DNA from: an uncultured Sphingomonadaceae bacterium
Lineage (GTDB): Bacteria > Pseudomonadota > Alphaproteobacteria > Sphingomonadales > Sphingomonadaceae
Length of the DNA stretch: 64,000 nt
Assembly (NCBI GenBank): GCA_903871605.1
Contig: CAIQHF010000022.1
Span: 102,526-166,525, forward strand
Direction of reading: 5' to 3'
In this document: in pieces, positions 5,429-63,467 of the stretch
How positions within the stretch are numbered: the first letter of the stretch is position 1
Layout of the letters: every line of letters begins with the position of its first letter
Made by a program: the position numbers and the translations under genes
Notes under the pieces: model-generated
Databases searched by the model: none
The model's input: the letters and a program-made list of their open reading frames with translations, nothing else
What the model was told of the DNA's origin: nothing

Positions 5429-5432
5429 GGGG

Positions 5433-10051: not shown

Positions 10052-10332
10052 GCCCAATATCCCTTCTGACGAAGATGGCGGAGCAGCACGGGCGCGAAAT
10101 AGGGATCCCGCCGGGCTGCAAAGACGGCGAGGCTGTGCCCCGCCGCCCAGAGCAGGAGGCCGGCCACCCATTGCTGGAGCCCCAGGCCGACGGCGGCCGA
10201 GATCGTCCCGATGACGATCGCGAGACCACGAGGTGCGCCGCCCAGCAGGATCGGCGACCCGAGCGCGCTGTGGATCGGGACCTCGAAGCCGGGAATGTGT
10301 CCGGCGTGCTGATGGGTGGCAGGCATGGTCAT
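10045..10332 (-). CDS. trbD: Conjugal transfer protein TrbD (VirB3-like)
   Basis: PGFEVPIHSALGSPILLGGAPRGLAIVIGTISAAVGLGLQQWVAG; length 95 aa; start MTMPATHQ. Confidence 0.88.
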   Translation of the reverse strand: MTMPATHQHAGHIPGFEVPIHSALGSPILLGGAPRGLAIVIGTISAAVGLGLQQWVAGLLLWAAGHSLAVFAARRDPYFAPVLLRHLRQKGYWAC

Positions 10333-10679
10333 GCGATCAGCGCCCCGCCGCCGAAGCTGAAGAAGCTGAGGAAGAAGCTCGAAGCGGCAAAGGCGATCGA
10401 CAGGCCGAACACGATCTGGATGAGCCGGCGAAAGCCACCGCTGCTCTCGCCGAACGCGAGCCCCAGGCCGGTCGCGATGATGACGATGACCGCCATGATC
10501 TTCGCCACCGGTCCCTGGACCGAGTCGAGCACGGACTGCAGCGGCGCTTCCCACGGCATGCCCGTCCCGGCGGCGTGGGCGGGCGAAGCGGCGAACGCCA
10601 TCGACAGCCCGACACCGAGGGCGAGTGGATGAAGCAGGCGGGCCACAAAACGGCGGCCGCGAACGGACGGCAAAGTCAT
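10329..10679 (-). CDS. trbC: TrbC/VirB2 family pilin
   Basis: Signal peptide, MPWEAPLQSVLDSVQGPVAKIMAVIVIIATGLGLAFGESSGGFRRLIQIVFGLSIAFAASSFFLSFFSFGGGALI. Confidence 0.92.
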   Translation of the reverse strand: MTLPSVRGRRFVARLLHPLALGVGLSMAFAASPAHAAGTGMPWEAPLQSVLDSVQGPVAKIMAVIVIIATGLGLAFGESSGGFRRLIQIVFGLSIAFAASSFFLSFFSFGGGALIA

Positions 10680-11683: not shown

Positions 11684-12087
11684 CGGCGCGCCTCCGGTCC
11701 AGGCACATCGATGGCACGCTTGCCGCCAGCGATCTGCCGCCCGACCTGCTCGACGAACGCGGCAAAACGGTCGCGCGCCATCGCGCGTCCGGCATGGTCG
11801 TCGCCCGCTAGCGGCGCATGAATCGAGAGTTCGTAGCGGACGAACAACGCCAGCGTTTCGAGCAGGATATGACCGTCGCGTTCAATCCGGCCGAGTGCCG
11901 TCACGATCCGATCGAGGCGTTGGCCGAAACGCTCGTCGATTTCGCTGGTCGCGCGCCGGTCGAGCCAGGACAGCAGGGCCTGCTCGAGCATGGCGGATTT
12001 TGTGACGCCGGGCTTCGTCGCCAGCGCTTCGAAGCGAAGGCTGGTCGCTGGCGTCAGATAGAATTGGTGACGAACCTTCGTGCGCAT
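11680..12087 (-). CDS. CopG/ribbon-helix-helix family protein of conjugation module
   Basis: MRTKVRHQFYLTPATSLRFEALATKPGVTKSAMLEQALLSWLDRR; located between traG and trbB. Confidence 0.8.
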   Translation of the reverse strand: MRTKVRHQFYLTPATSLRFEALATKPGVTKSAMLEQALLSWLDRRATSEIDERFGQRLDRIVTALGRIERDGHILLETLALFVRYELSIHAPLAGDDHAGRAMARDRFAAFVEQVGRQIAGGKRAIDVPGPEARR

Positions 12088-12090
12088 TGG

Positions 12091-40600: not shown

Positions 40601-40740
40601 GGTGGGGTCCTCCACAGGGAATCGGCGGTCCGACCACTGGAATCCTGTGGGCCGCACGCAAGGATGTTGCGGGGTCTGGCGCCCATCCTCCCATGCTGTC
40701 GCTTTGGGCACTCATAAAAACGGTGTGCAGACAGATATTT

Positions 40741-45889: not shown

Positions 45890-47770
45890 TCAGGCTGCCA
45901 GCGGAAGGGCAGCGACCGCGCCGGACGGTTCCGGCTCGGGCGCGGCCAGCACGAGCGGCGACGGCGCATCGGGGTCGGGCCGTGGCGGGGCCATCCGCGC
46001 CGCCTCGGCTTTCGCGTACGCCGCGACCGTGCCGACGCCGCCGCGTGTGGTATAGGCTGACGGCGGGAACGCCATCCAGCGCGGCACCCAGCGCTCGACC
46101 TTGGTCCGCCCGTCGCTTCCGTCTAGATGATCGCGGACGATCCGCTTCAATACCTTGGCGGGTTCGTTCGTATTGGCGCGCGCGATGCTGTCGCCCGCCA
46201 CCTCGACGACGATCCGCTGCATGACCTCGCGGTCGCGGATCAGGTCGAAGAAGACGCCGTCCGCCTGCCAGACGGCCGCCAGGTCGACACCGATGTGGAG
46301 TCCTATGACCTCGACGGCGGCGCTGCCCGCCGCCAGCGTCTCGCCCATCACGATGGTGACGATCTCCAGCACGATGCTGTCGGGCAGATCGAGCAGCCTG
46401 AACAGCAGCGCCGACAGCCGGTCGCCGGTCTGGTCATGCGCCCCTCCGCCGGAGACGGTCGGCTCGTCGTCGGACAGACCGAGCACGCCCAGCACCGCGC
46501 GGCGGCGCCGGTCGAAATCGGCCTCGGCGACGCAGGATATCACGCTCTCGCGGACATCCTCGTTGCGAGTGGCATGCGGCTCGTGCGAGACCCGCCAGAG
46601 CGGCGATCCGACGATCGCGTGCGCCACCATCAGACGCAGCGCGACACCGGGGTGACCGGTGAGCGCGGCGCGGACGGCGGCGTGGCGGTGCAGGTCGATA
46701 TAGGTCTGCATAGTGGCGGTCACTTCGGGCCGAGCGGCCTTGCGGTCGGGAGCATCGCCCTCGCCCTTCGGGACCCGCCGCGCCTCGGCGCGGCTGACAT
46801 AGCCTTCATGGAAGACGACCTCGCCGCTCGCGCGGACATCGGCATAGACCCGGCCACCTTTCCGCTTGGGCGTCTTCTCATATTCCCATGCCGCGAAATG
46901 CTCGGACGCAGGCACGACCACGACATCGCTCCATCCGGCCTCGACATAGGCCGTCGTCCGCGCCTCGATCGCAGCATGCTGTGCGGTCCAGAAGCCGTCG
47001 GCATCGGCGAAATAGGCATCCTCGCCGAACAGGTCGGCGATCGTCGCGAGCCCGCTTGCCGCGACATCGAACAGCGCTCGGCCGACCGCGATCGAGTGGC
47101 CGCCGAACAGCCACGCCTTCAACTGGTGGCCGGATGGGCAATAGGCGTCCGTGTCGTCGCGCAGCGCGAGCCACGCCTTCTGCTGCGCCTTGCTCGCCAT
47201 GGTGAGGTGGCGCACCGTGGTGCTGTCTATCTCCTCGTCCCGGTAGAGCGTGCGGAGGCGCGGCAGCAGATTGCCGAGCGCGAGCGTGCGCCGGATGACG
47301 AGCGGCGGGAGCCCGAAGGTCGCGGACAGGTCGTCGAGCGAACGGCCCTTGCGGACCAACGCTGTGAAGGTCTCCCAGCGGGTGACTTCGTCGGGATCGA
47401 GCCGGGCGATATTCTCGATCAGCGAGGCTTCGAGCGCTGCGGCATCGTCACCCGGCTCGATGATGGCGCACGGCATCGGCTCGATGTCGCCGCCGCTCGA
47501 ACGCCGCTCGTCGGCGACGATCATCGCGGCAACATAGCGTCGCCGCCCCGCGACGATTTCGAACGTCGCATCGCCGGTGTCTTGGGGGGCGACCTCGCCG
47601 TCACCCGAGCGCGACGCCGACCCCGCGGCGAGGCGCACGAGGATCGGGACGAGCACGCCGCGTGCGCGCACCGAGGGCAGGATATCGGCAACGTCGGGTG
47701 CCTTGCGGCCACCGCGCATATTGGTGCTCGACACCGACAGCTTGCCAAGATCGATATGAGAGAGGATCAT
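45890..47770 (-). CDS. ParB/RepB/Spo0J family partition-like protein
   Basis: SSTNMRGGRKAPDVADILPSVRARGVLVPILVRL...EIVAGRRRYVAAMIV...LIENIARLDPDEVTRWETFTALVRKGRSLDDLSATFGLPPLVIRRTLALGNL. Confidence 0.92.
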   Translation of the reverse strand: MILSHIDLGKLSVSSTNMRGGRKAPDVADILPSVRARGVLVPILVRLAAGSASRSGDGEVAPQDTGDATFEIVAGRRRYVAAMIVADERRSSGGDIEPMPCAIIEPGDDAAALEASLIENIARLDPDEVTRWETFTALVRKGRSLDDLSATFGLPPLVIRRTLALGNLLPRLRTLYRDEEIDSTTVRHLTMASKAQQKAWLALRDDTDAYCPSGHQLKAWLFGGHSIAVGRALFDVAASGLATIADLFGEDAYFADADGFWTAQHAAIEARTTAYVEAGWSDVVVVPASEHFAAWEYEKTPKRKGGRVYADVRASGEVVFHEGYVSRAEARRVPKGEGDAPDRKAARPEVTATMQTYIDLHRHAAVRAALTGHPGVALRLMVAHAIVGSPLWRVSHEPHATRNEDVRESVISCVAEADFDRRRRAVLGVLGLSDDEPTVSGGGAHDQTGDRLSALLFRLLDLPDSIVLEIVTIVMGETLAAGSAAVEVIGLHIGVDLAAVWQADGVFFDLIRDREVMQRIVVEVAGDSIARANTNEPAKVLKRIVRDHLDGSDGRTKVERWVPRWMAFPPSAYTTRGGVGTVAAYAKAEAARMAPPRPDPDAPSPLVLAAPEPEPSGAVAALPLAA

Positions 47771-47855
47771 CGTCGTCACTCCATGCGAGTGCCGGTCCCG
47801 GCGTTCTGACCGGAAGGACGGGGCCGGCTTAGATTGCGGCGAAACGCGCCGCGCG

Positions 47856-48920
47856 TCAGCCGCCGTGGCCGGGCCCGTCGGGGTCCGGCATCGGCGGAAG
47901 CGGGTGGGATGCGGGATCGCGCCGCGCGAGCAGCCAGTCGGCAGCCTTGCCGGCGGCGCTGGCGGCACGGAAGATCGCGCGGTTGTCGCCGCGCAGCACG
48001 TCGAGCCAGCCGGCGAGGTAGTCCGCGTGGCGGACGGTGGGGACGATGCCGAGGCTCGCGCACAGGAAGGCCGAGCCGAGTTCGGCGATCAACTCCTCGC
48101 GCGCATAATCTTTCGATCCGAAGTCGGTGACGAGCGTGCGCCCGAGGCGGGAGGCGTGACCTGTCGCGTGGCAGAGCTCGTGGAAGGCCGTCCGGTAGAA
48201 ATCGATCTGGTGGAAGAAGGCAGGCTGCGGGGGCAGCTGGACGGTATCGAGCGAGGGAACATAATAAGCCTTGTCGCCGCCGATCCGGACGGAAACCCCG
48301 CTCGCTGCGATCAGCGTTTCGCCGACGGGTATGATCTCGCGCTCGGGCAATGGCAGCGGCTCGGGCGTGAGGCCGGCGGACAGCCCGTCGCACTGCGCGC
48401 GGTTGAACACGGTGAAGCGTTTGAGGAAGGGGATGGCGCGCGCGGCGTCACCGACGTCGGCGGCGCGGGCGCGTTCGGTCTCGGGCGTAAAGCGATCGGC
48501 ATAGACGATCGTGGTGCCGCGCTCGCCTCGGCGGACAGAGCCGCCGGCATCGCGGCATTGCTTGAAGGTCAGCCAGCCTTGCGAGGGATAGCCACGCTCG
48601 ATGACCGCGCCCCACAGGATCAGGACGTTGATCCCGCCATAAGCCCGGCCGGTCGCCGCATTGCGCGGCAGGCCGACGCCCACGCCGCCGCCGTTCGTCG
48701 ACGCCCGCCCCCAAGGTTGGACCCAGGGGAAGCGGCCCGCTTCGAGTTCGGCGATGATCCGACTGGTGACCTCGTCATAGATAGAGGCGCGCGCGGCGTC
48801 GCTGGCGCCGCCCGTACCGACGGACGATCCGAGCCGACCGCCGTGGGTTGCGGGGTCGGTCGCGATGGCGCGCCCCCTGCCCACGGTTTCCGCCGCGTCA
48901 CGAATGCTGGCTTGGCGCAT
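47856..48920 (-). CDS. ArdC-like antirestriction protein (ssDNA-binding + zincin metallopeptidase)
   Basis: YDEVTSRIIAELEAGRFPWVQPWG...GLPRNAATGRAYGGINVLILW; FYRTAFHELCHATGHASRLGR (HExxH zincin); ELGSAFLCASLGI. Confidence 0.92.
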   Translation of the reverse strand: MRQASIRDAAETVGRGRAIATDPATHGGRLGSSVGTGGASDAARASIYDEVTSRIIAELEAGRFPWVQPWGRASTNGGGVGVGLPRNAATGRAYGGINVLILWGAVIERGYPSQGWLTFKQCRDAGGSVRRGERGTTIVYADRFTPETERARAADVGDAARAIPFLKRFTVFNRAQCDGLSAGLTPEPLPLPEREIIPVGETLIAASGVSVRIGGDKAYYVPSLDTVQLPPQPAFFHQIDFYRTAFHELCHATGHASRLGRTLVTDFGSKDYAREELIAELGSAFLCASLGIVPTVRHADYLAGWLDVLRGDNRAIFRAASAAGKAADWLLARRDPASHPLPPMPDPDGPGHGG

Positions 48921-50163
48921 GATATCCTCCTTGGCCTGCCCCAAAACACAAACCTCCCCGGAGAACGGGGGGTGGGCGGCAGAAGCGACCGGAGAGGCCC
49001 GTGCGAGCGGGCGCCTGCACCCCCCGGGGTCCCCGCCGCGTGCGCGCGGCGGGGTGGGATCAGGGGCGAAATGCAATGGAGCAGCCGAGCGGGCACGCGA
49101 GGCTTGCAGGTGGCCGCGACGGGCCTAGCAGGACGCGCCGTCCACCTCCCGTCTCGCCGGGAGAGACACAATCGGCGCCGCCGCGCCAGCGGCGTCATCA
49201 GCGTGGGCCAAAGGCCCGCGCCACAGCGCCAGCAATCAGCACCGTCAGGCCGAGACGAAGGCTCGGTGGCGGCGTCGCAGACGCGCTATGCGAGTGCGGT
49301 CGCGCGGGCATCGCCGCGCGAGGCGCCCGCTCACTGTTCGCTGGTATCGATCAGCACGGCCCGGTCTTCGGACATCTCGTCAGCGAGCGTTAGCGCACCG
49401 CGACGGGATGGACGTAGCGGGGCTTTGGAGTTGGCGAACTGTCCAGGGTCATCTGCGTCGATCAGATTGTCGCGTGCGACGTTTCCGTCACGGTATCGCG
49501 ATCGTCGGGATCGAATGGGATACGGGGTTCGCGTGCCTCGGGGTCCGCGTCGGCGAAACCGAGCCGGTCAGTTGAAACTGCCGAGCCTCAAGATCGACGA
49601 CCGGAGAATCGATGCGTGATCGAGGCATCGAGGGAGAAGCCACCATACTGCGACAAAGGATATGCGGCGCGGTCTGCATCAGCGTGCGATTATAGATGCA
49701 CCGAGGCAGAGACGACGCGCGATCGCCTGGGTCAGGACGAGCGCGATCTTGGCCGTCGTCTCTTGCGGCGTCCGCTTGTCCGATCGAAGCGTGAGCGTTT
49801 TGCGGCTTGCAATCATGCCCCTGTATTTCCCCCGGCGACGTCCGGATCTCGAGCTGCAACGAAGCGCTTTTCTTCTCGCGTCGGCATCTATAGTCTCGTC
49901 TGCGCACCGGATGACGTCGGGTGCCGAGGCCTGAAATCCTCGCTGTGAAGACATTTCCATCGGGTACACCCGGGTGGCCGACGTGCATGTACAGGCGCTT
50001 CGCGGCGCTAAAGACGGCGGCGCGTGTTTCCAGCATGTTTTCAGCACCCGGGCACCCTGTCGTCTCCTTCGCAGGAGGAGGACGATTTGCACAAACAGGA
50101 TCACCCGAAAGCCTCTTCTTGGCGGCGCGGTCGCTCCATGCACGTCGGCACTGTTTTACGACC

Positions 50164-50712
50164 ATGAAGCGCGACGACCCACTGCCGCCGGAAGACTGGT
50201 TGGGATATCGCGCCCAGCCGGCGGGGATCGATGCGCTCTATCGGGCGGAGCTGCCCCGGCTGTCGCGGTTCTTCGCGCGTCGGGTCGCCGCCGACGACGT
50301 CCTGGACATGGTGCATGAGGCGTTTCGGCGATTGCTTCGCGTCACGTCCGAACAGAAGACGCCGCTCGATTGCCCGGAAGCCTATCTGAGCCAGGTCGCA
50401 GGCAATCTGGTCCGCGACCAGCATCGTCGCGGGCTGAGCCGGTCGTATGATCGGCACATAGCATTCGATGAAGAAGAGATGGCAGGCTTCGAGCCGCTTG
50501 GACAGCTGGAGTCGCGCGACGCGATCGCCAAGGTCGATGCCGCGCTGCTCGAACTGCCGACCAAGACCCGCGAGATTTTCCTGCTTCACCGGAAGGGCGG
50601 GCATAGTTATGCCGAGATCGCAGCGGCACGGGGATTAAGCGTGAAGGCGGTGGAAAAGCATATCGCAAAGGCCCTGTTCGAATTGCGCCGGCGGTTGAGG
50701 CCGGACGAGTGA
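50164..50712 (+). CDS. ECF RNA polymerase sigma factor
   Basis: IDALYRAELPRLSRFFARRVAADDVLDMVHEAFRRLLRV...LLELPTKTREIFLLHRKGGHSYAEIAAARGLSVKAVEKHIAKAL. Confidence 0.92.
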   Translation: MKRDDPLPPEDWLGYRAQPAGIDALYRAELPRLSRFFARRVAADDVLDMVHEAFRRLLRVTSEQKTPLDCPEAYLSQVAGNLVRDQHRRGLSRSYDRHIAFDEEEMAGFEPLGQLESRDAIAKVDAALLELPTKTREIFLLHRKGGHSYAEIAAARGLSVKAVEKHIAKALFELRRRLRPDE

Positions 50713-51671
50713 CCCTGTCCTCCGAGGACAGGCGAGAGATCGACCTTGCCCTCGCCGAATGGTTGACTAAACTTGGCGGTGCCGATGGCGATCGGTATCG
50801 GGCTTCGTTCCATCGCTGGCTCGACGAGCGCGTCGAGCATCGCTCCGCCTATGCTGCGTTTCGCGCGACGGATCACGATGTCGAGTTGACCTCGCTACCG
50901 ACACCGCCCCTCCACGATCGTGTCGGGCTTGCCCGAACGCCCTACCTTGTGCAGTTGGCGCTCGCGGCGACGGTCTTGCTCGCCATAGGTTCCGCGGGCA
51001 CCTGGGCATGGCAGCATCATATTAACACTGCGGCATCGGGCACCACTCAAATCGCCGCTGACGACGCGGCTCGGGCGATCGATCTGCCCGACGGTCGACA
51101 CGTGATGCTCGACGCGCATGCGGTGCTGCTGACCTCGCTCGAGGACGACCCGTCCACACTGACGCTGCTCGAGGGGCGCAGCCGGTTTCGCCTTCCTGAG
51201 GGCTCTGCCCGCTTCGTCGTCGCAGCCGGTAACTTGCGGCTGACCGCGCACGGCGCTGTGTTCGATGTCATCGTCGACGACAACGGCGTGCGGATAACGT
51301 CGTTGGGCGGTACGCTAGTGGTCCGCCATCAGGGCGGTCTACCGGCCAGACCGGACATGATACTCAAGCAGGGCGAGCAGCTGGTGGCGAACAGGACGGG
51401 GGATCGGGTGACTGCGGCGGCACCCGACGAGGCAGGCTGGACCTCGGCGCTGCTTCCACTCGACGGCAAGACGCTGGCGGACATTATCGCGATCGGGAAC
51501 CGCCATGGCGGAAAGCCCATCATGCTGGCCGATCCGGCACTTTCAGCGAGGATGGTGCAAGGCCAGTTGCCGGCGACAGACACGCATATATTGGCGCTCC
51601 AGCTCGCCGCGGCCTTCGATCTCGATCTGCACGAAACCAAGCATGGCTATGTGCTCGCAATAAAAACGTGA
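50709..51671 (+). CDS. FecR family anti-sigma/signal transducer
   Basis: DUF4880-type N-term EIDLALAEWLTKLGGADGDRYRASFHRWLDERVEHRSAYAAF; LPDGRHVMLDAHAVLLTSLEDDPSTLTLLEGRSRF; GTG start overlapping sigma stop. Confidence 0.9.
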   Translation: MTLSSEDRREIDLALAEWLTKLGGADGDRYRASFHRWLDERVEHRSAYAAFRATDHDVELTSLPTPPLHDRVGLARTPYLVQLALAATVLLAIGSAGTWAWQHHINTAASGTTQIAADDAARAIDLPDGRHVMLDAHAVLLTSLEDDPSTLTLLEGRSRFRLPEGSARFVVAAGNLRLTAHGAVFDVIVDDNGVRITSLGGTLVVRHQGGLPARPDMILKQGEQLVANRTGDRVTAAAPDEAGWTSALLPLDGKTLADIIAIGNRHGGKPIMLADPALSARMVQGQLPATDTHILALQLAAAFDLDLHETKHGYVLAIKT

Positions 51672-51754
51672 GACCCCGGTAGGGGTGATTTCGCTTCCTG
51701 CGTCAAGCCGACCGTAAGGGCCGATAACGAGCCCTGAACCGGGGGCTTCATCCT

Positions 51755-54655
51755 ATGCGCAAAGCGGCTTTACTGACTACGGCATGCCTGATCGCTGCGA
51801 TCGCCAGCACCGACGCCCGCTCGGCCGATACTCGATTTCAAATTCCGGCGCAGGATTTGGCCTCCGCCTTGAAGGCGTTCGCGGCGCAATCGGGCGCTGC
51901 CATCGTCGCGTCGTCGGATCTCGTCCAGGGCCGCCAGGGTGGCGCGGCAGTCGGGAGACTCTCTCCCAGCGAGGCGCTTCAGCGAATTCTCCACGGTTCG
52001 GGACTCACCGCGCAGACGATCGGCGGCGCTTTCGTGGTGAGCATCGATCCTGTGACTCCGGCTTCGACGGAGGACGCGCAGGCCATCACCGTTACGGGTA
52101 CGCGCATTCGGGGCAGTGCGCCGATCGGCGCGCCGTTAACGGTGATCGACCGCAAGGCGATCGAAGACAGTGGGCGCGCAACGGTTGCCGACTACATCCA
52201 GACGCTGCCGCAGAACTACGCCGGAGGCCCCAATGAATCCAATCTCGGAACCAGCGCAAGCAACGGCGTAGGCAATAATCTGCGCTATGGAGCCAGCATC
52301 AATTTGCGCGGGCTCGGTACGGAATCCACACTCGTATTGTTCGACGGCAATCGACCGGCGCTCGGCGGATCGACCGGCGCTTTCGTAGATCTCTCGCTCG
52401 TACCGGCGACGGCGATCGATCGAATCGAGATCCTGACCGATGGCGCGTCTGCGATTTACGGTACTGACGCGGTTGCTGGCGTCGTCAATGTCCGGTTCCG
52501 CGATCATTTGAACGGCTTCGAGACGAACCTGTATTCGGGCACCGCCGACGGCGCCTTCGGCCAGTACCAGATAGGACAGGCGGCGGGAAAACGCTGGTCG
52601 ACCGGTGGTGTAATGATCGCTGCGCAATATGATCAGCGCGGGGCTTTGGCGGGCGCAGACAGACGCGCGTCGACAGACGATCTGACACCCTATGGCGGCC
52701 CCGATTATCGACCGGCTTATGATGCACCGGGTACGCTCATCGCTGCCAACGGAACGAGCTATGCGATCCCGGCGGGGCAGGACGGAAAAACCTTGTCGGC
52801 CGGATCGCTGATCGCGGATCAACAGCATCTTGTCGACGAGGCCAAACGGACCGATCTGCTACCGGCACAAAAAACCATTTCGGTGTACGCCGCGGGCGAT
52901 CAGCAGCTCGGCTGGGGACTGACCGCCTACGGGCACGCGCTCTATGCGCATCGCCGTTTCGATACGATAACCCAGGTCCAGGGTTTCCAGCCGGTGACGG
53001 TGCCGGTCACCAATCCCTTTTACGTCGATCCACTCGGCACGCGCCAGCCGGTGATAGTGCAATATGATTTCTCCGGCGAAGTCGGTGCTCCGCGCAGCGT
53101 CGGTACCGTGGACGCCATCACGACCAGCGGGGGCGTCAAAGGCGATATCGGTCCATGGACGATCGACGCCTCGGGCTCCTATGGACGCCAGGTCGAGCGC
53201 AATTACTATCGCAATCTGATCAGCTATAGCCGTGTCGCATCCGCACTGGCGTACACCGATCCGGCGACGGCGCTCAATGTATTTGGCGACGGCAGCGGCA
53301 ACGACCCGGCGACGATCGATGGCATCCGCGCGGAAATCGAGAATTATTCTCGGTACGCCGTGTGGTCGGCGAATTTGCGCACCGATGGGCCGGTCTTCAG
53401 ATTGCCAGCCGGTATGGTCAAGCTGGCGGCGGGGTTCGAGCATCGCGACGAACGTTTCACCGGCTTTCAAAGCTCGACGACGACCAGTCTCATCCCCACG
53501 GTTGCGCCGACGAACGGCGCGCCAGGTCACCGCAATATCGACGCGATCTATGGCGAGCTTGCGATCCCGGTAGTCGGACCTCGAACGGATGCTTTTCCCG
53601 GACGTCTCGATGTCTCGCTAGCCGCTCGCTCCGACTGGTACAGCGACGTCGGGCAAACGATCAATCCGAAGGCGGGATTACGATGGGAGCCAACGACGGG
53701 GCTCGCGCTGCGCGCGAGTTGGGGCACGTCGTTTCGCGCGCCCGGTTTCACCGAGAATGTGGGCGCGGCGAACAATTTCTATGAGGCGGTCGCACTGCCA
53801 GACCCTCGCTCGCCTACCGGCACGACGCCGGTCTTGGCCAAGATAGGTTCGGGACCCTCAATCGGCCCCGAGAAAGCCCGAAGCTGGACGGTTGGCGTCG
53901 ATCTAAAGCCCCTGTTCGCGCCGGGACTGACGCTCTCCGCCAGCTATTTTGACATCGCATATCGCGACCGGATCGGCAGCGCCAATGCCGAGGCCTATTC
54001 CTTTCTCGTCCAGCGCAACATCTATGGCAGTCTGATCGACGATCATCCCGATCCGGCGACCGTCGCCGCGTTCTACGCCAATCCGAGGTTTTTCAATCTG
54101 GCGGGCGTCGGCCCCAGCCAGATCGCCGCGATCATCAATCTCGAGACGCTCAATCTTTCGAAGCAAACCGAGCGCGGCGTCGATTTCGACATCGACTACA
54201 CGCACGCACTGTTCGGGGGCACGGCCTCGCTCGGCGTCGCCGGCACAAGGCTGCTTGCCCTCGACCAGCGGATCACGGCCACGGCGCCATCCCAGTCGGT
54301 GCTTGGCACCCTCTCCTATCCGGTCAAACTGCGGCTGCGCGGTCACGCCGGATGGGCGATCGGCGGCTTCGATGCGACGGCCTTCGTCAACTATACCAGC
54401 GGCTATACGAACCAGCTGGTCACGCCGAGCGCTCCCGTCTCAAGCTGGACGACGATAGATGGACAGATCGGCTACCGCTTCAGCCACGCATCGCCACTTT
54501 CAGGTGCCCGATTGGCGCTGAGTGCGGTCAATCTGTTCAACCGCCAGCCGCCCTATGTCGAAAACCACTTCTTTTCGACGACGCTGGCGTATGACCCGAG
54601 TGCCGCCAATGCGATTGGCCGCCTGATTTCGATCCAGGCAAATTTCTCTTGGTGA
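51755..54655 (+). CDS. TonB-dependent receptor with N-terminal STN (secretin/TonB) domain
   Basis: DTRFQIPAQDLASALKAFAAQSGAAIVASSDLVQG (STN); ITVTGTRIRGSAPIGAPLTVIDRKAIEDSGRATVADYIQTLPQNY (plug); C-term SIQANFSW. Confidence 0.95.
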   Translation: MRKAALLTTACLIAAIASTDARSADTRFQIPAQDLASALKAFAAQSGAAIVASSDLVQGRQGGAAVGRLSPSEALQRILHGSGLTAQTIGGAFVVSIDPVTPASTEDAQAITVTGTRIRGSAPIGAPLTVIDRKAIEDSGRATVADYIQTLPQNYAGGPNESNLGTSASNGVGNNLRYGASINLRGLGTESTLVLFDGNRPALGGSTGAFVDLSLVPATAIDRIEILTDGASAIYGTDAVAGVVNVRFRDHLNGFETNLYSGTADGAFGQYQIGQAAGKRWSTGGVMIAAQYDQRGALAGADRRASTDDLTPYGGPDYRPAYDAPGTLIAANGTSYAIPAGQDGKTLSAGSLIADQQHLVDEAKRTDLLPAQKTISVYAAGDQQLGWGLTAYGHALYAHRRFDTITQVQGFQPVTVPVTNPFYVDPLGTRQPVIVQYDFSGEVGAPRSVGTVDAITTSGGVKGDIGPWTIDASGSYGRQVERNYYRNLISYSRVASALAYTDPATALNVFGDGSGNDPATIDGIRAEIENYSRYAVWSANLRTDGPVFRLPAGMVKLAAGFEHRDERFTGFQSSTTTSLIPTVAPTNGAPGHRNIDAIYGELAIPVVGPRTDAFPGRLDVSLAARSDWYSDVGQTINPKAGLRWEPTTGLALRASWGTSFRAPGFTENVGAANNFYEAVALPDPRSPTGTTPVLAKIGSGPSIGPEKARSWTVGVDLKPLFAPGLTLSASYFDIAYRDRIGSANAEAYSFLVQRNIYGSLIDDHPDPATVAAFYANPRFFNLAGVGPSQIAAIINLETLNLSKQTERGVDFDIDYTHALFGGTASLGVAGTRLLALDQRITATAPSQSVLGTLSYPVKLRLRGHAGWAIGGFDATAFVNYTSGYTNQLVTPSAPVSSWTTIDGQIGYRFSHASPLSGARLALSAVNLFNRQPPYVENHFFSTTLAYDPSAANAIGRLISIQANFSW

Positions 54656-56664
54656 TGGGCGCCGCACTGGCAACCGTCGCGGCGGCAGTTGCGCTATCGG
54701 TCACCGCCGGGCCTGGGCGAGGCGTGTCGGTGTCTGACATCGTCGAGGTGACCGATCTGTCGGGTGTCAGCCTTTCACCCGATGGTCGCTGGATAGCCTT
54801 CCGGACTGACCAGGCTTCGATTGCCGACAATGGCTATCTCCTGCGCTGGTTTGTGATGCCGTCGGATCGTAGCGCAGCGCCGCATTTGGTCGCAGATGGC
54901 GGAGGTGCGTTGTTCCTGGACGCGGGGGTGCTCGCGACCGAGACGCCAATCTGGGCGCCTGATTCCAGCGGATTCTACATGCGGGCCCTGATCGGCGGCC
55001 AGATCCAGGTCTGGCGGGCGTCGTCCGACAGAAGCCCACCGACCCAGATTACGCACGACCCTGCCAATGTGCGCGATTTCACGCTGGCGCCAGATGGGCA
55101 CCATCTGACCTACCACGTCGGAGCTTCACGATCGGCGATCGACGCCGCCGAGCAACGTGCCCAGGATGATGGCGTTCTCGTAGACAGCTCGGTTGATATC
55201 GGTCAGCCGATCACGCGTGGCGCCTGGATCGATGGCCGTTTGGCGAGCCAGCGCTTCACGGGACAATGGTTTGCGCGTGGCGACATATTGTGGAAGACCC
55301 CGCTGGGAAGCGTGACCATCAAGATTCCGGATCCGCCGACGCAAAAGGCGAGCACGGTGATCGGCGTAGCCGCTTCATCCGAAGGAACAGCATCCGGCCG
55401 CGCGATTATTCGTTTCGTCGGAGCCGGTACCCAGCTGACGATCGAGCGACCGGATGCCTTGCCTGTCCAGTGTCGCACGGCGCAGTGTCTAGCGGGACGG
55501 GTCGTCTCAGCCGTCCCGATGCGCAGTGGCGCGTCGTGGCTTGTGACCGCGAACGATCCGGCCCACCAGCAGACCCTGTTCGCCTGGACACCGGGGTCAC
55601 CTCGAGCGCGCACGATCGCAAGCATAGCGGGCCTTCTCAATGGCGGGCGCGAGCCGAGTGAGCCCTGCTCGGTCGCTCGCTCGCAGCTGATCTGCGTAGA
55701 GGCGGAACCGACTAGTCCACCGCGCCTGGTCAGCGTGGATATCATGAGCGGGGAACGCGAGACTTTGTTCGATCCCAATGCGACGCTGCGAAATGATATC
55801 GACCGATCGGAACAGCATCTCTTTTGGCGAGGGCCCGATGGCGCGCACTTCACCGCCGAGCTGATCCTGCCACCGACGCCACCGCCATCGACAGGTTACC
55901 CGCTCGTCCTGCAATATTATTATTGCGCGGGATTCCTACGCGGCGGCCTGGGCGACGAATTGCCGATGCTGCCGTTGGCAAGCCGAGGTATCGCAACACT
56001 GTGTATCAATCAGCCGGCTTATGCAGGAGCACGCAACGCGACGCGCGACTACCAGCGCGCGCTCGGTGGGATCGATACGATCGTCGCGAGACTCTCGCGA
56101 GCGCGCCTCATCGATCGAAAGCATATCGGCATGTGGGGTCTGAGCTTCGGCAGCGAGGTCACCATGGCGGTCGCCGAACACTCCTCGCTCCTGGCGGCGA
56201 TTTCGTTGGCGACCGAGCCCCTGGAGCCTAGTTATTACTGGTATTATAGCGTTGCGGGCAACTCGATCGGGCCGACTTTTTTAAAGAACTGGCACGTGCG
56301 CGACCCCTCAAGCGATCTTCAAAGCTGGAAGGTGCATTCACCCGCGCTCAATGTCAGCCAAATCCACGCGCCGGTGCTGCTGCAGCTGCCCGAACAGGAG
56401 GCCCGCATTTCGATGCAATTCTATTCATCGCTTAGCCGGACGTCGACGCCTGTCGAGCTTTACGCCTTCGCCAACGAACCGCACATCAAAGAGCAGCCGC
56501 GTCACAAGGCCGCCGCCTATCAACGCAATCTCGACTGGTTCCGTTTCTGGCTTCAGCACGTGCAGGATCCGGCGCCGGATCGTGCAGACCAATATGCGCG
56601 ATGGCGCACGCTCGAGATCCGCCGTTCAGCTACGCGTCTTGGTAAGGATAGTGCGCGCCCATAG
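54652..56664 (+). CDS. S9-family lasso peptide isopeptidase (AtxE2-like)
   Basis: SDIVEVTDLSGVSLSPDGRWIAFRTDQASIADNGYLLRWFVMP; catalytic GLSFGSEV; located in a lasso peptide locus directly after the TonB receptor. Confidence 0.85.
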   Translation: MMGAALATVAAAVALSVTAGPGRGVSVSDIVEVTDLSGVSLSPDGRWIAFRTDQASIADNGYLLRWFVMPSDRSAAPHLVADGGGALFLDAGVLATETPIWAPDSSGFYMRALIGGQIQVWRASSDRSPPTQITHDPANVRDFTLAPDGHHLTYHVGASRSAIDAAEQRAQDDGVLVDSSVDIGQPITRGAWIDGRLASQRFTGQWFARGDILWKTPLGSVTIKIPDPPTQKASTVIGVAASSEGTASGRAIIRFVGAGTQLTIERPDALPVQCRTAQCLAGRVVSAVPMRSGASWLVTANDPAHQQTLFAWTPGSPRARTIASIAGLLNGGREPSEPCSVARSQLICVEAEPTSPPRLVSVDIMSGERETLFDPNATLRNDIDRSEQHLFWRGPDGAHFTAELILPPTPPPSTGYPLVLQYYYCAGFLRGGLGDELPMLPLASRGIATLCINQPAYAGARNATRDYQRALGGIDTIVARLSRARLIDRKHIGMWGLSFGSEVTMAVAEHSSLLAAISLATEPLEPSYYWYYSVAGNSIGPTFLKNWHVRDPSSDLQSWKVHSPALNVSQIHAPVLLQLPEQEARISMQFYSSLSRTSTPVELYAFANEPHIKEQPRHKAAAYQRNLDWFRFWLQHVQDPAPDRADQYARWRTLEIRRSATRLGKDSARP

Positions 56665-58377
56665 CTCCGCGTCTACCAGCGCCAGGATTCGAGCGTAGTC
56701 GGCGGGGCCACCCCGTGCCGGCTCGCGCAAGCAGTCGACGATCCTTGGCATGTCAAGCAATCCGGCGCCATGAAGAAGCCCATCTCGTAGAGTGGCTGTC
56801 AATTCAGGGCGCGCCCGATCATAGGCACGGACCATCAGAGACTCAACCCGACCTTTTTTGGTGCGTGCGAGTACCGCTGGCGGCAGGCGATCGGCGAAAG
56901 CGGCGCGGGCGACGGCGCGATCGCGGCCACCGGCAAGCCATTGCCAACTCGGGATCGCCAGGCAGGCTTCGAGCACGGGCTGGCTGAGCAACGGGAAGAC
57001 ATAACGCCGCCTGCAAAAGCGATCATGAGCGGTCAGCACCAGATGGATCCGGAGCACAGCAGCGATATGCGCGCGCAGTCCGGGCGGCGTTCCAGCCGGT
57101 AGCGCCAGCCAGGGATGACGGTCGGGTGCGGGTCGGACGTCGCGATTCAAAAAGCGGTGATTGGGCGGCCAATGGCGTGTGCGAAGGCTGTCACGGATCC
57201 CGCGCCGCGCGAGCGATCGTCCCACCTGCCAATAGGTACTGCCCGAGGTCGTTGCCACGTCGGCGAAGACTCGACGCGCCAGGGCTAATCCGCCCACTTG
57301 CCAGGCATCGACGATGGGCGCGGTCGATCCGATCGAGCAGAAGACATTATCGCCGCCTGCCCCGCTCAAGAAAGCATCCGCGCCAACGGCATCACCCAGA
57401 GCCTGCAAGGTTCGGTCGAGACCGGCCAGGAAACCCGTGCCACCGGGACGCTCGGTACGCCGTGTCGGCGTGTGGAGAGCGTTCACAACGTCGTCGCCGA
57501 CGACGGCCTCGATCAACGGCGCTACAAACTTGTCGGTGACCAGTCGAGCATAGCGGCGCTCGTCACCATCCGCGGCGCGAGTCGCGAACGTGAAACCGGT
57601 CCAGCGCGCAGACGCGCGATCGAGCGCGGCGGCCAAAATCGACGAATCGAGCCCGCCTGAGAGCTCTAGCCCGATTTGCTCGACGCCGAAGGCCCAGGCA
57701 GCGACGGCGCCATCGACGACCGACTCAAGCTCCTTGATCCTGTTTCGGCTCGCCGCGGCTCCCTGAGCCGCGTTACGAAATGCCCAGGGCTGCCAGATCT
57801 GTTCCATGGCCGGCGCGTCGGCATCCAGCCGCATGCGCTGACCCGGCAAGAGCTCGGTAACCTCCTCGATACCGGTCCGCGCCGTCGGCACCTGCGGATA
57901 GCACAGGTTATGTGCGACGCCAGGCCAGTCGATCGGGGTCCGGATATGTCCAAAGGCCTCGAGGGCTTCGAAATCGGAGGCGATCAGGGTCAGGCCGGAA
58001 CCGCTGTGAAACAGGACGGGCTGCGTCGCCGAGGGGTCGCGCATAATGCACCAAGGCCGGTCGGGACCCTCACGCCATATGGCCACGTAGCTTCCGAAAT
58101 ACGCGACCAGCAGCGACCGTCCGCCGGTACTCGCCACGGCCAGTTGTTGATGCGTCTCGATGTGCGATACCGGGCGGCTGTCCGCCGCCCGAAAGATCTT
58201 GCCGACGATCCAGCCGTCGACCGAAGGCAGCGCAATGGCGTTGCTCCCGGTCTCGGAGAAAAGCGCTGCGCCCTCCTGCATCGACACGATTGGAAAAAGC
58301 GGTGCCAAACGATCCCGCCATGTCGGAACGTATCCAGCGGCTTCCCGACCGATTGCCAGACAGAAACGAAACATCAC
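56626..58377 (-). CDS. Lasso peptide macrolactam synthetase (asparagine-synthetase-like C protein)
   Basis: N-term glutaminase-like domain lacking Cys2; PP-loop IGLELSGGLDSSILAAAL; ATP-binding GAGGDNVF. Confidence 0.9.
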   Translation of the reverse strand: MMFRFCLAIGREAAGYVPTWRDRLAPLFPIVSMQEGAALFSETGSNAIALPSVDGWIVGKIFRAADSRPVSHIETHQQLAVASTGGRSLLVAYFGSYVAIWREGPDRPWCIMRDPSATQPVLFHSGSGLTLIASDFEALEAFGHIRTPIDWPGVAHNLCYPQVPTARTGIEEVTELLPGQRMRLDADAPAMEQIWQPWAFRNAAQGAAASRNRIKELESVVDGAVAAWAFGVEQIGLELSGGLDSSILAAALDRASARWTGFTFATRAADGDERRYARLVTDKFVAPLIEAVVGDDVVNALHTPTRRTERPGGTGFLAGLDRTLQALGDAVGADAFLSGAGGDNVFCSIGSTAPIVDAWQVGGLALARRVFADVATTSGSTYWQVGRSLARRGIRDSLRTRHWPPNHRFLNRDVRPAPDRHPWLALPAGTPPGLRAHIAAVLRIHLVLTAHDRFCRRRYVFPLLSQPVLEACLAIPSWQWLAGGRDRAVARAAFADRLPPAVLARTKKGRVESLMVRAYDRARPELTATLRDGLLHGAGLLDMPRIVDCLREPARGGPADYARILALVDAELWARTILTKTRS

Positions 58378-59021
58378 AACGCCAGTATCGGAGTGAATTC
58401 GGCAATGACGTCGAGATCATCGCTGAGCACTGTCGAACCTGCCTGCACCCAGCTATGCGCGGCGAAAGGGTCGATACGAACGCCGAGTACGAGGGTGGCA
58501 TCGAGACCCGCGTCGACGAGAAGGATCATGAGCGCAAGGCTATCGCGCAGGCACACCGGTCGGATCGGAACCCTGGTGCGGATCGCCCTATAGGTCTGGG
58601 CAACAGCAACAGCTGCATCGACGTCCCGCCGTAACGCGTGGGTCGCCTCGCGTGCGCTGATCAACCGGAGGCTAGCCTCGAAGCCGCGCGCCCATTGGAT
58701 CCACGTGACGGACAGAAGCGCTCGGCAAACGCGAAGCCACAGCATATCCCGTGCAGATGCGACCGAGGCCAAGGGGATCATGTGTTCCGGGTTGGGAATA
58801 TCGAGTGGTCGGTACGGGGTGTTTCCCGCGCAGAGAATACCGGCGGCGAGCAGATGCTCCAGCGCTGCGACGTCGGTAACGGTCTCATCCTTCGCGATGT
58901 TTTGAAACACGTGAGCGGCACGCGCGCCCAGCGATCGATAGCGGTCGGCGGAGATGTCGAGCAGTATCGCGCGCTCGTCGAACAAAGCGATCCGAAGATG
59001 AGGGGGAAGCGCGTGGGCCAT
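58374..59021 (-). CDS. Lasso peptide biosynthesis B protein (RRE fused to B2 leader peptidase)
   Basis: N-term FDERAILLDISADRYRSLGARAAHVF (RRE-like); CLRDSLALMILLVDAGLDATLVLGVRIDPFAAHSWVQAGSTVLSD (Cys/His transglutaminase-like B2). Confidence 0.92.
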   Translation of the reverse strand: MAHALPPHLRIALFDERAILLDISADRYRSLGARAAHVFQNIAKDETVTDVAALEHLLAAGILCAGNTPYRPLDIPNPEHMIPLASVASARDMLWLRVCRALLSVTWIQWARGFEASLRLISAREATHALRRDVDAAVAVAQTYRAIRTRVPIRPVCLRDSLALMILLVDAGLDATLVLGVRIDPFAAHSWVQAGSTVLSDDLDVIAEFTPILAL

Positions 59022-59067
59022 CGCCGTTCGAATGCGCGGACGCCAAAACGCCCGCGCATTCTAGAGC

Positions 59068-59196
59068 TCAGTCGGCGTCGGAGAGACCGATCGGCTGGAG
59101 ACCGGCGGTCTCCTGCGGAAGGCCTACCGAGCCCTGGGTCTCGATGCTGGCGGCGCCCAGATCGATCAGTTCAAGCGTGTTCTGGTCGGTGTTCAT
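59068..59196 (-). CDS. Lasso peptide precursor: MNTDQNTLELIDLGAASIETQ | GSVGLPQETAGLQPIGLSDAD
   Basis: 42 codons read directly on - strand; RBS agaggag upstream; Thr at -2, Gly at core 1, Glu at core 8; immediately upstream of lasso B and C. Confidence 0.93.
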   Translation of the reverse strand: MNTDQNTLELIDLGAASIETQGSVGLPQETAGLQPIGLSDAD

Positions 59197-59297
59197 GACC
59201 ATTCTCCTCTTGCCGTACGGAATTGGACGGCAGGATCAGACTATGCGGTTCGACGCAGATGGGAACTTTATACTTCTCGTATCGGCCGAATATTGTT

Positions 59298-59918
59298 TTA
59301 CGGCCCGATGTGCTTATGACTTCGCAGAATTCCGGCAATCTCGCCAACGATCCGGAGACGACGGCGATGAAAATGATCGAAGGCGCGCGCCGCTTCCGTC
59401 CAGCGCGCATCAGCCAAAGCCGAATCGATCGGCGCGACATCCTCGTCGCTTCGCGGAAGGACCAATGCCTCCGCTCGCCGGCAGAGAGCCATGCGATCGT
59501 TGAGGCTGGCGATCGCGAGCCGATGCTCGTGGTTCGATGAGCGCAGCGCAAGGTCCGTGAACACGCCTTCCACCTGCGCGACATAATCCGCTGCGACGGC
59601 GCTCGTCGCTGCTACAGCGGTGCTGGTTGGACGCGCCGCGCTACGCAACACGACGTGAACAAGTTCGCTGCTCCAATCGTAAAGATCCCTGATCGCCGGC
59701 TCGACGATATGGGGTTGGCGGAAACCTTCCTGTTGCCAGCTTTCCACGAGATGTTCGCCAGCTAGACGATGAAGGGCTTCTCGCACCGGCGTCGGGCTTG
59801 CCGCCAGATCCAACGCCAACTGGTGCGGATCAAGCCGCTCTCCGGGCGCAAAGCCACCTGCCATGATGCGCGCCTTGAGAGCGTCATAGACGCGCATCAT
59901 CGTCGCCCCGGGGCTCAT
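59298..59918 (-). CDS. GntR family (FCD) transcriptional regulator
   Basis: VYDALKARIMAGGFAPGERLDPHQLALDLAASPTPVREALHRLAGEHLVE winged HTH. Confidence 0.92.
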   Translation of the reverse strand: MSPGATMMRVYDALKARIMAGGFAPGERLDPHQLALDLAASPTPVREALHRLAGEHLVESWQQEGFRQPHIVEPAIRDLYDWSSELVHVVLRSAARPTSTAVAATSAVAADYVAQVEGVFTDLALRSSNHEHRLAIASLNDRMALCRRAEALVLPRSDEDVAPIDSALADARWTEAARAFDHFHRRRLRIVGEIAGILRSHKHIGP

Positions 59919-60859
59919 GGCACGTCTGCGCTCGCGGCCACCTCAGCCGTCCCCTCATGTCGCTGTTGGCGAACATATCCGGCCAGAAGCGCTGCCTGGT
60001 CGGGTCGCAGCGCGTCGATTGCCCCGAGCGGGCGATCGGCCCAGTCGTCGAGCAGGACCGAGGGACATTGGCCTTCGAAGTTGCCGAGATTGGGACGGTG
60101 CTGCTGGTAGCCGACCAGACGCGCAAGATCCGCCGGGAAACCGCGCGCAATCTCAGGCGGATAGGCCAGCGACTGATTTTCATAGGCACGAAGCCACCCA
60201 AGACTATATCCTATCACAATCGCCTGGCGCCGGCGGGGGCCGACATTCGCGCCTGCGCCGTGCAGCGTGGAACCGAGAAAGACGATCGCGTCGCCGGGAT
60301 CGCATTCGGCGGCGACGGCTTCCAATTGAGGCTCGCTCGCTTCGAGGGCCGTCGCGCCATGACTGTCGGGCCAGATACGCGTTGCGCCATTCTCCTGCGT
60401 GAACGGGGTCAGCGGCCACATGACATTGACGAGATATTCGCTGACCCCCTTCGATCCTTGCCACATGTCTTGGTCGCGGTGGGGATATTGTGCCGGTGCG
60501 CCCGGATGAATCTCGATCGCCTGGGCGACGTTCAGCTGGATCACGTCGCACCACGGTCCAAGAATGCGGTTGACGATCTCGAGCAGGATCGGCTGCAGGA
60601 CGAGTGCCGCGGACGTTTCCGATCGCGCCAGCAGGCGGCCGAACCGCTTTGTATGCTCGCCATAAAAAGGGCCACGACAAAAGGGCGTTTGAGCAAAATT
60701 GCCATCGATTTCGCGCGCCACACGCTCGATGACCCTCTGCGATACGAGTTTCCGGATGATGCAGTATCCCTGATCCTCCAACTGGAAGGCCGCGATGTTG
60801 GTACGGGCGGCATCGAACGCCCCGTCGCTCAGCAATGCGTTCATGGTGTCTTCCTTCAA
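59915..60859 (-). CDS. Phytanoyl-CoA dioxygenase (PhyH)-family Fe(II)/2-oxoglutarate dioxygenase
   Basis: HRDQDMWQGSKG (HxD), FTQENGATRIWPDSH, AIVFLGSTLHGAGANVGPRRRQAIVIGYSLGWLR. Confidence 0.9.
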   Translation of the reverse strand: MKEDTMNALLSDGAFDAARTNIAAFQLEDQGYCIIRKLVSQRVIERVAREIDGNFAQTPFCRGPFYGEHTKRFGRLLARSETSAALVLQPILLEIVNRILGPWCDVIQLNVAQAIEIHPGAPAQYPHRDQDMWQGSKGVSEYLVNVMWPLTPFTQENGATRIWPDSHGATALEASEPQLEAVAAECDPGDAIVFLGSTLHGAGANVGPRRRQAIVIGYSLGWLRAYENQSLAYPPEIARGFPADLARLVGYQQHRPNLGNFEGQCPSVLLDDWADRPLGAIDALRPDQAALLAGYVRQQRHEGTAEVAASADVP

Positions 60860-61473
60860 GCTGCGCGGGACATTGGCAGCGGATCATGGGGCACTGCGAA
60901 GATTCCCGCGCGCCGCAGCGCCGGGAGCGTGTCCTGCGTGATCCTGATTCGCAGTGCTCCGAGCATGCGCGAACCGTAGCGTTTCGGTTTCCCGAGCAGC
61001 TCGCAGTCCCAACCGAATTGCAGGATCTGCTCGAGCCATGGAAGGTCGGCAACACCTGTATAGGTATCGACCCCATGATCGACCGCATACATCGCAAGCG
61101 CCGTAACGAGTTTGTTGCGGCATAGTCGCCGGTCAGGCGCCCGCATGTCCGGAGACAGGCAGAAGCGCGTTATTTCCCATACGCTGTCGCCGGCCGGGAG
61201 GGGGCCATCGCACAGATCCGGAAAAAGCGTGTCGAGGATCCCCGGCCGTGTCGTCGGCAGCAGGCGGGCCGAGGCAAGATGGCGATGCTCGCCGTCGGCC
61301 AGAATGATATAGCGCGCGGCGGCGATATCGAAATGGTCCACTTCATATCTGTCATCGAGCGCTGGTATGTCCCAGCGCAGGAGATCAATGAAGACGCGCT
61401 TGCGCGCCTCGAACATTGATCTCAGAACGACGCGCTCATTGATGCGATTGGTGGCATCCACGTGCAGAAGCAT
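60856..61473 (-). CDS. LuxI-family acyl-homoserine-lactone synthase
   Basis: MFEARKRVFIDLLRWDIP...YEVDHFDIAAARYIILADGEHRHLASARLLPTTRPGILDTLFPDL...SVWEITRFCLSP. Confidence 0.93.
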   Translation of the reverse strand: MLLHVDATNRINERVVLRSMFEARKRVFIDLLRWDIPALDDRYEVDHFDIAAARYIILADGEHRHLASARLLPTTRPGILDTLFPDLCDGPLPAGDSVWEITRFCLSPDMRAPDRRLCRNKLVTALAMYAVDHGVDTYTGVADLPWLEQILQFGWDCELLGKPKRYGSRMLGALRIRITQDTLPALRRAGIFAVPHDPLPMSRAA

Positions 61474-61505
61474 TGCGTGTCTCCTTGATGGGAGACGGCA
61501 ATGAA

Positions 61506-61542
61506 ACACCCGATCGGATCGTCGCCTATGACCCGATCGGGT
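61506..61542. promoter_or_regulatory. Candidate lux-box region upstream of luxI (perfect 12-bp palindrome plus second half-like copy)
   Basis: cacccgatcgga...acccgatcgggt (61531-61542 is self-complementary) in the luxR-luxI intergenic region. Confidence 0.5.
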
Positions 61543-61549
61543 ACCGGCG

Positions 61550-62299
61550 TCAGGAAAGAACGTCGGAAATGCAGAGCGATCCGTCGGCGAGCGCCTGAAG
61601 CGGAAGGGTCGTTCTGGTCGCGAACGCATAGCGCTCGCATGCTTCGCGCAGATGCTTCTTCACCGTATTCACCGAGAGACCAAGCAACTTCGCGATCGCC
61701 CAATTGCATTTGCCGCGACCGACCCACATCACGCATTCGAGTTGGCGCTCTGTCAGGATATCGCGCTTCGGCAAATGACGCGCCCAGCCGATATCGAGCA
61801 TCTTCTGGAACAGGATATTCCCGAACGCTTGCGCCAGGAATAAGCGATGCTCGGGGAACGGCGTTCCTATTTCGGTCGCAAACGTCACCGAGCCGCGGGC
61901 CGCACCGTAGACGTTGGCCGGCACGGTGAAACCGTCCTCTATACCATATCCCCTCGCCTCATCGAGCATCGCATCGTCTCTTGGCGAGAATGGAACGATC
62001 AGATGCGCATCGCGCCAGCGAAATCCGCTGGAGCGAACATGACAGGCGCGATGGACGGGGTCACAGCGGCCGAGTTCCTCGCTGATATAGCGGGCTTCCC
62101 AGCCCGCCGGGTAGTTATGGATCGGCTCGCCAGGATCGTCTTTGCGGAGCCCCGGATGTCGCGATATCGCATAGAAATCAAATCCCAGCGTGCGAGCCGC
62201 TACCGGAAGAACTTCCCGCATATCGTCGAAAGTGCCGCAGTCGGCGATTGTCCCTGTAACCTGAGCAACATGATCACTTACAAGCATGACGGTCATCAC
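61550..62299 (-). CDS. LuxR-family quorum-sensing regulator
   Basis: Autoinducer-binding GFDFYAISRHP...FRWRDAHLIVPFSPRDDAMLDEARGYGIEDGFTVPANV; C-term LTERQLECVMWVGRGKCNWAIAKLLGLSVNTVKKHLREACERYAF. Confidence 0.93.
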   Translation of the reverse strand: MMTVMLVSDHVAQVTGTIADCGTFDDMREVLPVAARTLGFDFYAISRHPGLRKDDPGEPIHNYPAGWEARYISEELGRCDPVHRACHVRSSGFRWRDAHLIVPFSPRDDAMLDEARGYGIEDGFTVPANVYGAARGSVTFATEIGTPFPEHRLFLAQAFGNILFQKMLDIGWARHLPKRDILTERQLECVMWVGRGKCNWAIAKLLGLSVNTVKKHLREACERYAFATRTTLPLQALADGSLCISDVLS

Positions 62300-62591: not shown

Positions 62592-63467
62592 TTGGAGAAA
62601 CCCTTCAGACGCCGGGTGAGCGATCCGCTTGGCAAAGCATGCGTTTCGCCATCGTGCGATGTTCTTGAGCATCGGCCGATCGTGGTGCTCATAACCGCGC
62701 CACCCAATCTTTCGACGAGGCCGCCGGACTGGAGGAAAGCTACCGATTACGAAGCGCTACGCTCGGCAGACCGGCCAGCATTCGCCTGGGAATGGCTGAG
62801 ACGTTCCGCGATCTACCGCCGTGCATGGGAAGGCCGCGATGGCCACCAAGCCAATGCACGCGCATTTAGTCTCGAACGCTTCGAGGATCCGCTCCATCGC
62901 GTGCCCTTCGCGCGGCCGATCTGGAGTGCCAGCATCGATAAGTCCGTCATTATTGCGAGGGTACATAGCCTGTATGCCGCCGCCTCCGACCGCATCGATC
63001 TGCTGGACCTGCAGCATCTCGTGACGCTCACGGTCGATGAGGATCAGATCGAACACTTGTTGCTCAGCGATGGTGTGCGGGGGCTACGCATCGATGTTGT
63101 TGAAGGAACGCTGATCGGATGCCCGGCGGTGCTGCGATATTTGATCGAGGGCCTGGATACGCTTCGTGGGCCACTGGCCGCGATTGAGCGCCTCGTCCGA
63201 TTGAGTAAGACGGGAAGCCTTGATCGCCCCGGCCCCCGATCAACCAGGCTGCCCGATCGTTGGATTTCCGAATTGCGGGTTGGGGACGCGCTGAGCAGCG
63301 GCGCCGACCACCAGGATATTGCCCGCGTCCTTTACGGGCATCTCGTTCCGGCGGACGGTTGGCGGACGACAAATACGGCGTTTCGAACGCGCATTCAGCG
63401 TCTCGCGCGCGCCGCTCGACGACGTTTGGAACGGCCGTTGGATGCATCATGGTTCACCGTGGAATGA
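62592..63467 (+). CDS. DUF2285 domain protein (ICE-type regulator with DUF6499-like N-terminus)
   Basis: PDWRKATDYEALRSADRPAFAWEWLRRSAIYRRAWEG; C-term DQDIARVLYGHLVPADGWRTTNTAFRTRIQRLARAARR-like region typical of DUF2285. Confidence 0.8.
   Translation: MEKPFRRRVSDPLGKACVSPSCDVLEHRPIVVLITAPPNLSTRPPDWRKATDYEALRSADRPAFAWEWLRRSAIYRRAWEGRDGHQANARAFSLERFEDPLHRVPFARPIWSASIDKSVIIARVHSLYAAASDRIDLLDLQHLVTLTVDEDQIEHLLLSDGVRGLRIDVVEGTLIGCPAVLRYLIEGLDTLRGPLAAIERLVRLSKTGSLDRPGPRSTRLPDRWISELRVGDALSSGADHQDIARVLYGHLVPADGWRTTNTAFRTRIQRLARAARRRLERPLDASWFTVE

Follow-up and report, generated by a model that had tools for sequence, protein, structure and literature searches.

In almost all isopeptidase-type lasso peptide clusters a GntR gene precedes the precursor gene (PMC9266682). 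Pairs of luxI and phyH have been published for Sphingomonadaceae (PMC3704786, PMC4288048), and in N. subterraneum the AHL synthases were validated and a GntR gene follows phyH at novI3 (PMC5012321); the remark, in an earlier note on this DNA, that PhyH-like genes beside luxI had been reported in the family is borne out by these papers. On the mobile element ICEMlSymR7A the TraR-AHL complex switches on FseA, which starts excision (PMC10359603). A Sphingomonas lasso mutant could no longer grow on phenanthrene (PMC11006600), and a relative with a mutated luxI degraded this compound less well (PMC7432010), a parallel that is suggestive only. In the open-access papers searched, none connects lasso peptides to luxI or phyH. 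Since GntR before the precursor is already known, the new joint in the locus described here is the one between phyH and gntR.

The window, that is the whole stretch of 64,000 nucleotides that was analysed, comes from an uncultured Sphingomonadaceae bacterium, and its features are collected in Table 1. Seven intact minus strand genes lie at 56626-62299 in the order luxR, luxI, phyH, gntR, lassoA precursor, lassoB and lassoC, as the earlier note had claimed, and all match the expected families. A gene for an AHL synthase and one for an AHL-binding LuxR are adjacent, as befits a LuxI/LuxR circuit, and LuxI has the residues R..F..W and D..D (judged by eye). The luxI open frame reaches 61629, the most likely start being the ATG at 61473, which is preceded by AAGGAG. 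For phyH the start is probably the ATG at 60844, which is preceded by the better Shine-Dalgarno sequence, so that luxI and phyH are 11 nt apart; the 4-nt overlap previously described for this pair is possible only with a TTG start and is not retained. The remaining junctions stand: phyH and gntR overlap by 4 nt (59915-59918, ATGA), gntR and lassoA are separated by 101 nt when counted from the better-spaced ATG at 59196 (95 nt from the ATG at 59202), and lassoB and lassoC overlap by 4 nt with a GTG start or by 1 nt with an ATG start.

Table 1. Features of the window, with position, strand and supporting matches or remarks.
Feature	Position	Strand	Match or remark
Trb/VirB conjugation genes (TrbI, VirB8/TrbF, TrbL, TrbE, TraG coupling protein)	2482..14133	-	
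Relaxase-like DUF3363 protein	38615..40711	-	PF11843 4e-138
ParB-like and ArdC anti-restriction genes, element backbone	45890..49076	-	beside fecI
FecI-type ECF sigma factor	49921..50712	+	
FecR-like anti-sigma factor	50709..51671	+	NF007296 1.8e-9
TonB-dependent receptor with STN signalling domain	51755..54655	+	PF00593, PF07715, PF07660
AtxE2-family lasso isopeptidase	54649..56664	+	convergent with lassoC; NF033523 2e-161, over cut-off
lassoC, Asn-synthetase-like macrolactam cyclase	56626..58377	-	Asn_synthase PF00733 3.5e-28
lassoB, leader protease B2 domain	58374..59021	-	NF033537 2e-19
lassoA precursor	59068..59202	-	PF24178 (Subterisin) 8e-13; NCBIfam benenodin family NF033522 9e-13
Hairpin	59211..59232	-	directly upstream of lassoA Shine-Dalgarno; position kept across loci
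lassoA operator/promoter element CGATACGAGAAGTATAAAGTTC	59263..59284	-	motif tATA-N7-TATAAA-N-TTC, 19.6 bits
gntR, VanR/FCD-type regulator	59298..59918	-	4-nt overlap with phyH
phyH, Fe(II)/2OG dioxygenase	59915..60844	-	PF05721 3.2e-27; HRD...H...R motif intact
luxI, AHL synthase	60856..61473	-	PF00765 (Autoind_synth) over cut-off
Candidate lux box ACCCGATCGGGT	61531..61542	.	perfect 12-bp palindrome, about 64 nt upstream of luxI
luxR	61550..62299	-	AHL-binding and GerE HTH; PF03472 (Autoind_bind) 2.7e-26, PF00196 4.5e-8
FseA-like DUF6499-DUF2285 regulator	62592..63467	+	divergent from luxR; PF20109 2.7e-8, PF10074 2.6e-6

The lasso cluster extends past the span first considered, the plus strand of 49921-56664 encoding FecI, FecR, a TonB receptor and an AtxE2-family isopeptidase; with these, and with the B protease and the C cyclase, it is a complete isopeptidase-type (AtxE2) cluster. 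The precursor leader ends in ...LIDLGAASIETQ with Thr at -2, and the core GSVGLPQETAGLQPIGLSDAD starts with Gly, has an Asp/Glu at 8-9 and closes with a C-terminal Asp. Its predicted ring is G1-E8 and its computed mass 2005.996 Da as a lasso, or 2021.990 Da with an added oxygen. The product is predicted to be a threaded peptide; a search of solved structures with a subterisin-like core gave no match. The same genome has a second complete set (locus L100, contig C36:40000-59999), comprising luxR-luxI-phyH-gntR-lassoABC with isopeptidase, TonB receptor, FecR and FecI, whose LuxI and PhyH are each 65% identical to those of the window, the set overall being roughly 40-65% identical, and whose core is GSIIGGAEAGGLHKGVGLSDDD.

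A set of 401 sphingomonad species genomes was surveyed, calling the isopeptidase at the NCBIfam cut-off. This identified 70 AtxE2-type isopeptidase genes in 59 genomes. Counts that follow are approximate, and those of luxI are lower bounds, since they are taken among the best 150 luxI matches listed and since divergent isopeptidases (L178, L179, L185-L188) fall below the cut-off. Among these matches luxI lies within 20 kb of at least 44 of the 70 isopeptidase genes, where about 1.0 would be expected, and for about a third of the isopeptidase clusters none was found nearby; luxI occurs in at least 56 of the 59 genomes with an isopeptidase versus at least 64 of the 342 others (Fisher p = 9e-31), and among genomes that lack an isopeptidase the luxI survey extends to only some 19 loci. 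Outside the Sphingomonadaceae, an isopeptidase of this kind occurs in one of 237-odd alphaproteobacteria, which is without luxI. A PhyH search of GTDB genomes gave 67 loci. In about 47 of these, from Sphingopyxis, Novosphingobium, Sphingomonas, Stakelama and other hosts, B and C, a convergent isopeptidase and a TonB receptor come after luxR-luxI-phyH-gntR. Some 18 of the 67 have luxI-phyH without gntR, and lasso genes are found in none of these. A gntR joins the luxI operon almost exclusively in loci that have lasso genes, the exceptions in a gntR-by-lasso table being inflated by stretches truncated at an edge. Counting near-duplicates, 66 of 72 loci retain the 4-nt overlap of phyH and gntR. 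The proposed quorum-sensing linkage of the lasso cluster thus recurs in dozens of loci, far beyond chance; it is neither confined to this strain, which the earlier note had named as an outcome against its reading, nor unusual, as that note had supposed, but widespread and apparently unrecognised. Judged from these genomes, the quorum-lasso pairing is old and has been retained time and again in many sphingomonads.

The pairing comes in two main layouts. The luxR-luxI-phyH-gntR unit lies upstream of lassoA in 67 loci and at the FecI end in 21, the second layout being seen also on the sequenced plasmids Sphingopyxis indica pMC4 and Blastomonas pBSY18_2 (standard annotation). In a third group the unit lies 22-70 kb from the lasso genes or on another contig (L196-L199, L208, L217), and for several lasso clusters that lack a gntR nearby, luxI-phyH-gntR occurs at another place in the same genome. 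Lasso-linked PhyH sequences form one clade. Three changes on the PhyH tree account for the lasso/gntR label, and four for the position in the cluster: one old association that was rearranged several times yet kept. Divergence of LuxI and of C is correlated (Spearman 0.42); this may reflect shared ancestry and we therefore do not lean on it.

Upstream of luxI, the relatives carry the lux-box-like dyad ATcCCCatTTCttGGgAT where the window has ACCCGATCGGGT, which does not score with the family motif (-8.4 bits), despite being fully palindromic and in the expected position. Of 102 strong sites of the dyad, 81 lie upstream of luxI and none upstream of lassoA. In most clusters, whether or not they have luxI, the tATA-N7-TATAAA-N-TTC motif is found about 82-96 nt ahead of the lassoA start, and it is consequently a trait of the lasso module and no proof of quorum control. 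In the 3.2 Mb scanned, 79 of 90 strong sites are directly upstream of the precursor used, several of the remaining ones preceding B or a further precursor. Most simply, the dyad would be bound by LuxR and the lassoA element by GntR. A structure model of GntR (mean pLDDT 90) matches VanR/FCD regulators, and VanR operators, with a GTATAC core, resemble the half-sites of the lassoA element. Stems of the hairpin before lassoA vary with pairing kept (GCCGC/GCGGC, GCTGC/GCAGC, GTCGC/GCGAC, GTCATC/GATGAC), and it occurs in clusters with and without quorum-sensing genes. Scans for sigma-70 promoters and terminators around lassoA found none.

Residence on a conjugative element, as had been proposed, is supported by the type IV secretion genes, coupling protein and relaxase in the window, which are those of a Trb-type element. 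The FseA-like gene has DUF6499 and DUF2285 in one frame, with no frameshift needed, as in the FseA family. A tRNA-Glu lies at 1831-1906. A 129-nt direct repeat, 86% identical, is located at 3703-3831 (inside trbI, near the left end) and 63728-63856 (near the right window end). The same element has MmeI-type restriction-modification and GmrSD-type genes at 20048-25458, possibly defence cargo, and at 43143-44924 a single chain in which a nucleotidyltransferase is joined to a C-terminal HEPN domain. Elsewhere, four luxI-phyH loci without lasso genes (L086, L091, L092, L098) are found beside ParB and ArdC, three of them with a relaxase. Conjugative elements of sphingomonads may commonly carry luxRI-phyH as a module.

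That PhyH hydroxylates the lasso peptide, giving a product of +15.995 Da, had been suggested and has some appeal: phyH is adjacent to the lasso genes in the same orientation, and the Fe/2OG enzyme CanE, encoded near a lasso cluster, hydroxylates canucin at its C-terminal Asp (PMC9266682), the window's core likewise ending in Asp. A CanE-like gene would track the lasso cluster, whereas the window's phyH follows luxI, and PhyH goes with luxI whether lasso genes are present or absent; many luxI-phyH loci have no lasso genes, some of the conjugation type among them. Conversely, lasso clusters without luxI lack phyH, leaving aside stretches cut at an edge and locus L118. In the latter, the only such case, a phyH (L118:15708-16502) that is perhaps a remnant adjoins fecI of a lasso cluster without detectable luxI. 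The active-site motifs of PhyH are invariant; 76 lasso-linked and 33 other PhyH sequences have 62 near-invariant alignment columns in common, and no column tells the two contexts apart. The closest structures (PrhA, AndA, AsqJ, FtmOx1) are all small-molecule oxygenases, and a C-terminal Asp/Glu is equally common in cores from clusters without quorum-sensing genes. We therefore regard lasso hydroxylation by PhyH as very improbable. Because PhyH tracks luxI and not the lasso genes, its substrate is probably the AHL or the acyl precursor of the AHL.

Our preferred scheme for this quorum-sensing/lasso supercluster on a Trb-type conjugative element, which we hold as a whole to be reasonably probable, is as follows. 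LuxI would make an AHL and PhyH would oxidise this signal or its acyl precursor; LuxR with the signal would activate luxI-phyH-gntR from the lux-box-like site, and the co-translated VanR-type GntR would act on the lassoA operator and set expression of lassoABC, so that lasso production would be tied to cell density. The released peptide would re-enter via the TonB receptor and be opened by the isopeptidase, with FecR/FecI tuning the uptake genes. A single operon from luxI to lassoC, as first proposed, would instead have AHL drive the lasso genes directly by read-through from the luxI promoter, GntR merely modulating. Co-orientation of the genes, the overlap of phyH with gntR and the empty terminator scan of the gntR-lassoA gap agree with it, but the separate element conserved before lassoA in clusters with and without luxI, and the units at the TonB side or tens of kb away, which cannot read into lassoA, make one transcript unlikely. 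With a lux-box-like dyad before luxI and an operator of its own before lassoA, the order LuxR-AHL, GntR, lassoA is the likely one. The quorum circuit could also serve mainly element transfer, as TraR/FseA does, with the lasso cluster as co-inherited cargo without regulatory link. Besides that precedent (PMC10359603) and the window's Trb genes, relaxase, ParB, ArdC and FseA-like gene, FseA-like homologues occur by luxR in 28 of 57 loci with the unit on the ABC side, and luxRI-phyH adjoins virB genes on plasmids. We find this doubtful, since none of the 38 luxI-phyH loci that lack lasso genes has an FseA-like gene close to luxI, the luxI operon gains gntR almost only alongside lasso genes, and the linkage persists after rearrangement to the other cluster end. 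Given the Trb genes and the FseA-like gene divergent from luxR, the circuit may govern transfer besides lasso production. A two-tier signalling system of the mobile element, in which a new class of oxidised AHL made by PhyH acts through GntR on the lasso peptide as a shared signal or carrier, which the TonB receptor, isopeptidase and FecR/FecI would read and which would couple density to transfer, is a speculative and rather improbable extension.

As a recognised arrangement the conserved quorum-lasso supercluster is provisionally new, going by the open-access literature. The AHL circuit gives a handle on what isopeptidase-type lasso peptides do in nature, as one can add AHL and look; lasso genome mining in sphingomonads may have missed an inducer that is required for native production. 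Lasso peptides are in turn a likely output for the long-noted luxI-phyH pairs, and the linkage suggests that phyH alters the signal.

The clusters of astexin/AtxE2, benenodin, sphingopyxin I and subterisin have the same precursor family, B, C, GntR, convergent isopeptidase, TonB receptor and FecI/FecR as the window (PMC9266682). Unlike these isopeptidase-type clusters, compared by their description, in which quorum genes are unmentioned, the window has its gntR in a luxI-phyH-gntR operon. The N. subterraneum locus L059 has the full set with the core GPPGDRIEFGVLAQLPGLDRD, probably subterisin, as judged by species and family name only. ICEMlSymR7A resembles the window in having LuxRI-type genes (TraRI) on a conjugative element with a DUF6499-DUF2285 gene, FseA (PMC10359603); the window adds phyH, gntR and the lasso cluster. 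M. japonicum R1-I1-crotonase also has an enzyme gene directly after luxI, there required for an unusual AHL (PMC10470506), and this precedent for a neighbour enzyme that shapes the AHL supports placing PhyH, the dioxygenase found where M. japonicum has a crotonase, on the signal side. Finally, the published luxR-luxI-phyH loci have the same three genes in the same order as the window (PMC3704786, PMC4288048, PMC5012321); those papers mention no lasso genes, whereas here lasso linkage is the rule for the gntR-bearing subtype.
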